Origin: Clostridiales bacterium
GTDB taxonomy: Bacteria; Bacillota; Clostridia; Oscillospirales; Oscillospiraceae
Length of the DNA stretch: 47,215 bases
Assembly: GCA_022785125.1 (NCBI GenBank)
Contig: JALFRA010000025.1
Location: 1 to 47,215, forward strand
Direction of reading: 5' to 3'
Program-made: the position numbers and the translations under genes
The notes under the pieces: generated by a model
What the model saw: the letters and a program-made list of their open reading frames with translations, nothing else
Database searches by the model: none
Told to the model about the DNA's origin: nothing
Part shown: piece by piece, positions 5,935 through 40,550 of the stretch
Numbering within the stretch: the first letter of the stretch is position 1
Layout: each line of letters starts with the position of its first letter

Positions 5935-6205
5935 TATGATAATATCTGCTGAATAAACCGAAAATCGGTTTATTCACGCGGCGGTAGCCGCGCAATTCCA
6001 CAAAAACGGCTCAAAGGAGCCGCTTTTATGGAATTCAGCCATTGTTACAATGGGTATTTCCACTGGCGCGTTGAAACGCGCCAGTGGAAGGTGCAAGGCT
6101 TTTTGGACGAAATCGTCCCAAAACCTTGCACTTGAACAAAGCCATTTGACCTTGAAAGCCTTGGTTTTCAAGGCTTGTGGCTTTGTTCAGTACACATTAT
6201 GATAA
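5935..6205 (+). repeat. Multi-hairpin repeat element, copy A
   Basis: About 270 bp with imperfect terminal inverted repeats (TATGATAATATCTGCTGAA at the left; the right end read on the minus strand is TATCATAATGTGTACTGAA). Between them are successive hairpins: an 11-bp AT-rich stem at 5951-5975; a GC stem near 5977-5993; a long stem at 5994-6035; an invariant linker with mini-hairpin CATTGTTACAATG; a 14-bp stem with TGAA loop at 6059-6090; a long GTGCAAGG stem at about 6090-6132; and a two-part TGAACAAAGCC stem to about 6189. It is homologous to copy B at 40280-40550 in reverse orientation, with paired base changes. There is no ORF inside. Confidence 0.88.
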
Positions 6206-24687: not shown

Positions 24688-24693
24688 TATAAA

Positions 24694-24757
24694 TCAATAG
24701 TTGACGGCGCGGATCTCGAAGTAGGCCTGGGGATGAGCGCACACGGGGCACACCTGG
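24694..24757 (-). pseudogene. Duplicated 3' end of rubrerythrin (64-bp direct repeat, copy 1)
   Basis: 62 of 64 bases match 24926-24989, the end of the intact rubrerythrin gene. The two differences are silent, and the fragment still reads QVCPVCAHPQAYFEIRAVNY and stop. It has no start or upstream gene and so is a leftover copy. Together with 24926-24989 it brackets the hairpin-rich insert at 24758-24925. Confidence 0.85.
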
Positions 24758-24925
24758 CGGGCCGCCCCACCCGGCCCAGGCCGGGCGGGGACCCCGTTCA
24801 TTGCAAAAGCCCGGGTGGAATGAATCCACCCGGGCGCAAGGTTTTTACGCGGTAAAAACGCTTGTACGGCGCAAGCGCCGCCCCATCTTCGATGGGACCC
24901 CAAAGAGGCCCCCCACGAAGTCAAG
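24758..24925. repeat. Hairpin-rich insert between the rubrerythrin repeats
   Basis: 168 bp of consecutive palindromes: CCCC/GGGG-bounded GC stem (24765-24790), an 11-bp stem GCCCGGGTGGA (24809-24835), CAAG-GTTTTTAC ... GTAAAAAC-CTTG (24837-24864), CGGCGC-AA-GCGCCG (24867-24880), CCCATC-TTC-GATGGG (24882-24896). There is no credible ORF. It separates the stop of intact rbr from the 64-bp copy and the old terminator, as expected for an insertion or a duplication event. Confidence 0.7.
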
Positions 24926-25459
24926 TCAATAGTTGACGGCGCGGATCTCGAAGTAGGCCTGAGGATGGGCGCACACGGGGCACACCTGGGGAGCCTCTTT
25001 GCCGAAGTGGATGTGGCCGCAGTTACGGCACTTCCACATATACTCATCGCCCCGCTTGAACACGACGCCCTCTTCCAGGTTCTTCAGGAGGGTCAGGTAG
25101 CGCTCCTCGTGCTCCTTCTCAATCTTCAGGACGCCCTCAAACAGGAAGGCCAGCTTCTCAAAGCCCTCCTCACGAGCGGTCTCGGCCATTTCCTTATACA
25201 TCTCAGTCCACTCTTCATGCTCACCAGCGGCGGCGGACTTCAGGTTGGCCATGGTGTCTCCGATGCCGCCCAGTTCCTTGAACCACAGCTTGGCGTGCTC
25301 CTTCTCGTTGCCGGCGGTCTCCTCAAAGATGGCCGCGATCTGCTCGTAACCCTCTTTCTTGGCCTTACTGGCAAAGTAGGTATACTTATTGCGGGCCATG
25401 CTCTCTCCCGCAAATGCCTTCCACAGATTGGCTTCGGTCTTGCTGCCCTTCAGTTCCAT
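24926..25459 (-). CDS. rbr: Rubrerythrin
   Basis: Non-haem di-iron peroxidase that reduces hydrogen peroxide in anaerobes. It has 177 residues. The ferritin-like four-helix domain carries metal Glu residues in AFAGESMARNKYTYF, FEETAGNEKEHAKLWF and FEGVLKIEKEHEERY. The C-terminal rubredoxin-like knuckle has two Cys pairs (MWKCRNCGHIH and VCPVCAHP). It is the third gene of perR-dfx-rbr, 50 nt after dfx. The gene is complete, and its last 64 bp are repeated downstream. Confidence 0.96.
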   Translation of the reverse strand: MELKGSKTEANLWKAFAGESMARNKYTYFASKAKKEGYEQIAAIFEETAGNEKEHAKLWFKELGGIGDTMANLKSAAAGEHEEWTEMYKEMAETAREEGFEKLAFLFEGVLKIEKEHEERYLTLLKNLEEGVVFKRGDEYMWKCRNCGHIHFGKEAPQVCPVCAHPQAYFEIRAVNY

Positions 25460-40279: not shown

Positions 40280-40550
40280 ATTATTATAATGCGTACCGAA
40301 CAAGGCCAAATGCCTTGAAAACACCGACTCTCAAGATCAGTTGGCTTTGTTCAAGTGCAAGGTTTTTGGAGGATCTCGTCCAAAAACCTTGCACCTTCTG
40401 TTGGTGTGTTGAGACGCACCAACAGAAATACGCATTGTAACAATGGCTGAATTTCATAGAAACAGCCAATTCGAGCTGTTTTTATGAAATTGCGCGGCTC
40501 CCTCCGCGCGAATAAACCGCATCGCGGTTTATTCAGCAGGCATTATTATA
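40280..40550 (-). repeat. Multi-hairpin repeat element, copy B
   Basis: Reverse-oriented homologue of copy A (5935-6205), about 270 bp. Read on the minus strand: terminal TATAATAATGCCTGCTGAA, an 11-bp stem GAATAAACCGC/GCGGTTTATTC, a GC stem, a long AATTTCATA stem, the invariant CAGCCATTGTTACAATG linker, a TTCTGTTGGTG stem, a 16-bp GTGCAAGGTTTTTGGA stem, a GAACAAAGCC stem and a terminal CATTATAATAATG. Stem bases that differ from A usually change on both sides. It lies between hisC and spoIIGA; its right end supplies TATAAT 36 nt before the spoIIGA start. Confidence 0.88.

Follow-up and report, generated by a model that had tools for sequence, protein, structure and literature searches.

A palindromic MITE of Oscillospiraceae, probably mobilised by an IS5-family element at T-ATNAT-A targets, with hairpin pairing most likely renewed by template switching

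The window, a stretch of 47,215 nucleotides from a Clostridiales bacterium of the Oscillospiraceae, contains two inverted copies of one element of about 255 bp, A (5935-6204) and B (40282-40550, minus strand). These align end to end, and the complementarity of the two arms of the inverted pair is 79% and 84%. The inverted pair had been recognized in a first-pass annotation of the letters alone, and it is confirmed here with slightly corrected edges. Copy A is located between coaE and a gene for an M18 aminopeptidase and adjoins a ribosome-binding-like AGGAGG, an arrangement that is not promoter-like. Copy B lies inside a conserved TATAAT box upstream of spoIIGA, which is followed by sigE. The SpoIIGA product scores 193.6 bits with PF03419 (cutoff 28.4), and 143.5 bits with the NCBIfam model, which is under the cutoff of 209.55. 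Position and conservation suggest that the box holding B is the spoIIGA promoter. Elsewhere in the window, a 73-nt direct repeat (24691-24763 and 24923-24995; 93% identity, 232 bases apart) covers the 3' end of a 177-aa open reading frame (24926-25459, minus strand), which we take to be rubrerythrin-like.

The body of the element is a chain of seven palindromes; it is non-coding and consists almost wholly of hairpins (Table 1). Copy A folds at -145.1 kcal/mol (z -14.8 against dinucleotide shuffles) and copy B at -141.9 kcal/mol (z -15.5). The ends had been described as inverted repeats and indeed carry AATGYSTRCTGAAYAAA-like terminal repeats on both sides. The linker CAGCCATTGTTACAATG, thought at first to be invariant, is identical in A and B, but across 76 aligned copies it is strongly conserved rather than invariant. 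Its form, CAT-7mer-ATG (CAT-TGTTACA-ATG), would resemble the outer junctions of the element. One locus of the own genome, L012 (C20:247912-248074), consists of the second half of the element alone, flanked by TATTATA and AATTATA. Taken with the form of the linker, this locus offers a lead, and only a lead, that the full element might be a fusion of two smaller elements joined at the linker.

Table 1. Coordinates of the two copies and their parts in the window, with the basis of each assignment
Feature	Position	Strand	Basis
Left flanking 7-mer TATGATA of A, target duplication (mirrored part probably the inner 5 bp)	5935..5941	+	sequence, flank statistics, empty-site comparison
MITE copy A	5942..6197	+	alignment, copy set
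Hairpin 1 of A, adjoins left terminal repeat; apex in both orientations among copies	5951..5975	+	
Hairpin 2 of A	5977..5993	+	fold, consensus fold, apex comparison
Hairpin 3 of A	5994..6035	+	fold, consensus fold, apex comparison
Conserved linker CAGCCATTGTTACAATG; small palindrome inside counted as hairpin 4	6036..6052	+	
Hairpin 5 of A; apex orientation varies among copies	6058..6089	+	
Hairpin 6 of A; 3' arm in family consensus carries CAAAAACCTTGCACTTG, as the IS leader does	6090..6132	+	
Hairpin 7 of A, adjoins right terminal repeat; absent from RNAalifold consensus fold	6134..6188	+	
Right flanking 7-mer TATGATA of A	6198..6204	+	sequence, flank statistics, empty sites
Right flanking 7-mer of B (TATAATA on minus strand)	40282..40288	-	
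MITE copy B, inside conserved -10-like box upstream of spoIIGA	40289..40543	-	
Left flanking 7-mer of B (TATAATA); empty relatives show single TATAAT here	40544..40550	-	

The element is dispersed. In its own genome (G000) it occupies 13 places, 11 with both ends and 2 partial (L012 and L013); these places were derived from 31 match rows, the remaining 18 short rows being 16 internal palindromic matches and 2 short separate stretches. Matches are present in 13 of the 20 genomes of the genus, the own genome included. At the level of the family (Flavonifractor/Pseudoflavonifractor type), where the best two candidates per genome were scored, 41 of 400 genomes matched, and these represent 20 of the 106 genera. 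A 26-base linker pattern was found in 53 stretches of named genome contigs, with the names Flavonifractor, Pseudoflavonifractor, Intestinimonas, Galloscillospira, Oscillospiraceae, Clostridiales, uncultured Clostridia and uncultured bacterium among them, and in no viral contig. A short end pattern did occur in 24 stretches of viral contigs, which were taken as chance. The statistics below rest on 77 full-length copies with flanks, drawn from among the matches listed (at least 154 loci) with identical cores counted once, and set apart from 156 partial profile hits and from full hits with fewer than 12 bases of flank; leaving out one near-duplicate gives the 76 aligned rows. In the open-licence literature of PMC, no paper naming the element was found.

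The flanks bear the marks of transposition. The 7-mers on both sides have the consensus TATNATA and are identical left and right in 49 of the 77 copies; in 5000 random re-pairings, identical pairs numbered 17.3 on average and 27 at most. Even among the 48 copies that do not have TATAATA on both sides, 20 show an exact match, with variants such as TATGATA, TATCATA, TACAATA and TACAGCA. A deviation at position 1 or 7 of one flank does not recur in the other, so the duplicated target is probably ATNAT, the 5 bp inside a framing T and A. Site A was read in 19 loci, of which the own is filled and 17 of the 18 others are empty; the locus gave no match in one of the 20 genus genomes. At their unoccupied site, two close relatives retain one TATCATA, read on the other strand. 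The exception, L245 (G017:C20) from a distant species, holds a partial element over model positions 1-94; either this site was hit more than once, or an old insertion was later lost from the other genomes. Site B was read in 20 loci: the own is filled, 17 of the 19 others are empty, L248 has a 48-bp remnant of the left end, and L265 lies at a contig edge where occupation cannot be judged. A profile search of the empty A and B loci gave no match to the element. In G001 (L247), however, the sequence following the B target is similar to the start of the element, and a near-precise loss may have occurred there.

A and B are thus copies of a MITE: the copies are many, short and dispersed and have no transposase gene, and there are terminal inverted repeats, target duplications, empty sites and an insertion sequence (IS) with shared ends. 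This bears out one option of the first-pass annotation, a MITE-like element moved in trans. An origin by a tyrosine recombinase, with a 7-mer shared by both ends, was considered and rejected: variant 7-mers match left and right, and it is an IS of the DDE type that has near-identical ends.

The best candidate for the mobilising element would be an IS5-family insertion sequence of the relatives, or a close relative of it. In G005, a member of the genus, a search with the end pattern found seven contigs that break off 107-108 bases into an IS end of this kind, which points to several IS copies in this genome. Starting from these ends, an IS of about 1.55 kb was reached in relatives from the family. 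Its transposase of 477 aa belongs to the IS5 family (NF033578, 414.8 bits, cutoff 275), and the Pfam models DDE_Tnp_1_2 and DUF772 are also over cutoff. The IS ends vary around AATGTCTRCTGAAYAA and are near-identical to those of the MITE; L283 has AATGTCTACTGAACAA at both ends, while L281 has AATGTATCCTGAATAA and AATGATTACTGAACAA. Three of the four two-ended IS copies have duplications bracketed by T and A (AACGT, AAAT and ATAT), each of which, at 4-5 bp, is weak evidence singly; the fourth, interrupted by another IS, has none. Furthermore, the IS leader and hairpin 6 of the MITE consensus have 17 nt, CAAAAACCTTGCACTTG, exactly in common. The match scores 34 in L281, and for each of the four leaders tested the score was reached by none of 300 shuffles. 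Within the first 150 bases of the IS, which were those compared, nothing beyond the leader stretch matched the MITE.

Against this partnership count the IS duplications, which are AANT-like and of 4-5 bp, whereas those of the MITE are mostly ATNAT. At the search thresholds applied, the own genome gave no hit to the transposase, and only one of the 20 genus genomes gave any, a 45% partial hit; the partner is therefore an inferred one. Across the family, 13 of 400 genomes passed 1e-60, and 293 plasmid records carry transposase relatives, 292 of them under 60% identity. As judged from sequence, the link between IS and MITE appears good but indirect. In the leaders of L281 and L283, the palindrome GTGCAAG...CTTGCAC is situated between TATAAT and the start codon, followed by TTGGAGG or TTGGGGG; this hairpin could mask the ribosome-binding site of the IS.

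The MITE is often inserted at -10-like boxes and in a preferred orientation. At the middle position of the left 7-mer, 60 of the 77 copies have A and 10 have T. A -35-like box, defined as at least five of six matches to TTGACA at 15-19 bp, lies to the left in 13 of 77 copies (1.5 expected from shuffles) and to the right in 4 (1.6 expected). The right-flank gene points the same way as the element in 52 copies and the opposite way in 10; in 11 copies no decision could be made, and in 4 the flank was too short. Gene direction was called approximately, by a simple codon-usage score from 22 chosen window ORFs. The opposite orientation of A and B relative to their neighbouring genes had been held against a riboswitch or leader role, an argument that fails for the family as a whole. 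No outward -35 box was seen by eye in the right end of the element. The orientation bias may originate in target choice or in the loss of harmful insertions. That it represents targeting, with a transposase that reads the asymmetric -10 box or the opened promoter complex, would agree with the excess of central A and of -35-like boxes on the left. We nevertheless regard this as rather doubtful: surviving copies have passed through the filter of selection, vertically inherited copies are not independent, and two of the three IS duplications (TAACGTA and TAAATA with their brackets) are not -10-like.

More at issue is what maintains the pairing of the stems. It had been claimed that the stem differences between A and B are paired and that the folded form must therefore be selected. 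Over hairpins 1-6, 14 of 65 stem pairs differ; seven are paired double changes, and the other seven are one-sided and make or remove a mismatch, an A-C or a G-T pair, so that the observation holds for one half of the differences only. In the RNAalifold consensus fold, which comprises 66 pairs and excludes hairpin 7, as many as 46 pairs show a double change. Such a score is what one would expect of a structured RNA or a mobile 5' leader, transcribed from the host promoter and kept in its fold by selection on the RNA. This reading also gains from the right-flank gene being codirectional in 52 of the 62 called copies, and from an orthologous locus that four genomes have retained and whose most diverged comparison shows 5 double changes. 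An RNA under selection is, however, expected to pass through G-U rather than A-C intermediates, and in the 76 copies the two are about equal: 59 events from a Watson-Crick pair to G-T versus 56 to A-C (77 versus 68 cells), excluding pairs whose commonest state is not Watson-Crick and with another 46 Watson-Crick-to-mismatch events outside these counts. The RNase P RNAs of the genus have 13 G-U versus 0 A-C cells (14 sequences from 18 rows, 26 pairs), and a control enlarged to 43 sequences, with 29 of 30 loci (L319 left out), has 73 versus 31. The contrast with RNase P is thus present but modest, being softer in the wider control than in the genus control. Both strands of the MITE fold almost equally well (means of -146.4 kcal/mol for plus and -144.8 for minus; plus is lower in 46 of 76), whereas in 39 of 43 RNase P RNAs the native strand folds better (-164.0 versus -148.5 kcal/mol).

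Stem changes were also counted between orthologous copies. The count used folds of both strands and of both copies and is therefore strand-fair; seven of 11 ortholog pairs were included, leaving out L046/L050 (77% identical) and three redundant comparisons. Single changes gave 19 A-C, 7 G-T and 2 other mismatches, next to 6 double Watson-Crick changes. This 19:7 excess is the wrong way for a plus-strand RNA; unlike the split over all copies it is not even, so that it also counts against the preferred, strand-symmetric reading, and alone it would favour the minus strand. It is a small count in which three comparisons share one copy and are not independent. Five of the six double changes come from L010/L272, against three single ones there, a pattern that selection could also give. 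Concerning known families, the first impression that none was recognisable is upheld by Rfam, which gave no hit at gathering score in the whole window; at lax settings, 8 matches with E no higher than 1 were obtained for copy A, all of them under cutoff, the best being MIR8008 with 32.2 bits against a cutoff of 66. For a free structured RNA, no positive evidence was obtained. With the loops inverted among copies, as described next, selection on an RNA seems quite improbable, and the step from paired changes to a selected fold is not supported in the form in which it was made.

Loops flip in this element. The apex of hairpin 5 of B has 2 differences from the reverse complement of that of A and 4 from that of A itself. 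The copies display 328 distinct hairpin apices, and for 24 of these the exact reverse complement also occurs among the others; controls with the stem kept gave 6 for reversed and 2 for complemented loops. The inverted apices are distributed over hairpins 1, 2, 3, 5 and 6 as 6, 2, 4, 10 and 2; none of the 73 apex variants of hairpin 7 is inverted, which counts against the preferred explanation. In orthologous copies, the loop of hairpin 6 is exactly inverted in L004/L036, where a 22-base inverted match spans 2 differences, and that of hairpin 5 in L010/L269, where 31 bases span 5; the remaining three of the 5 ortholog loci (8 comparisons) showed no such inversion. Template switching has been described as a cause of both compensatory changes and loop inversions in RNA genes (PMC8794818). 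Near-equal intermediates, almost equal folding of both strands and inverted loops together point to template switching at palindromes, and the same process presumably makes the stem changes. Alternatively, template switching might do no more than flip the loops, and the pairing might be preserved because DNA hairpins or cruciforms are themselves under selection, for instance as binding sites of a transposase or a host protein. Near strand symmetry fits any cause at the DNA level, and the occurrence in 20 of 106 genera would be in keeping with such selection. On the other hand, hairpin modules have been lost with both ends kept, in shortened elements of about 50, 118 and 200 bp, so no inner hairpin seems to be needed for having moved or persisted, and we judge this selection to be unlikely. 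Two elements of about 46-50 bp, L181 (G008:C5:2265-2314) and L182 (G002:C8:328162-328207), consist of only two terminal repeats forming one hairpin.

The reading preferred here is that of a MITE of gut bacteria of the Oscillospiraceae type, probably mobilised by an IS5-family element at T-ATNAT-A targets, with palindrome pairing most likely renewed by template switching, to which we assign a probability of roughly three in four. The MITE would have spread in trans, probably by the transposase of an IS5-family IS with matching ends, into T-ATNAT-A targets that often are -10-like boxes of promoters. Its pairing would then be renewed at the level of DNA: during replication one arm, or the whole hairpin, may be copied from the other by template switching, which would produce 'compensatory' changes and flip loops without any selection on RNA. 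As a more speculative and tentative extension, a palindromic mobile element may come to mimic a structured RNA via template switching, with oriented insertion at a -10 box duplicating this box and turning the element into the 5' leader of the gene. Many regard covariation as the strongest indication that an RNA is functional, and this MITE scores very well on it. Since its intermediates and flipped loops nevertheless suggest copying of DNA, the family constitutes a natural test set for separating RNA from DNA causes. The family is absent from every listing found and now has a candidate IS partner. Many of its insertions are at -10-like boxes, one of them upstream of the sporulation gene spoIIGA.

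BOX and REP/BIME are intergenic palindromic repeats with stem loops. So is CIR, and bacterial MITEs are known to be mobilised in trans by an IS, for example RUP by IS630-Spn1 (PMC2229807 for both). CIR, BOX and REP/BIME resemble the present MITE in this general description, and their hosts differ. With the RUP type the present MITE has in common that it is short, non-coding and intergenic, with terminal inverted repeats, a target duplication and ends shared with an IS; it differs in being longer (about 255 bp), in its seven palindromes, in a candidate partner of the IS5 type and in a T-ATNAT-A instead of a TA target. The IS5 family (NF033578) shares near-identical ends, a 4-5-bp duplication bracketed by T and A and the leader stretch with the MITE, but it contains a transposase gene, and its interior beyond the leader is unmatched over the first 150 bases compared. 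Finally, the hairpins treated in PMC8794818 likewise combine compensatory changes with loop inversions, in RNA genes including bacterial rRNA, whereas here it is a non-coding mobile element that has many inverted apices among its copies. The MITE can be read as an extreme case of this template-switch evolution of hairpins, in mobile DNA.
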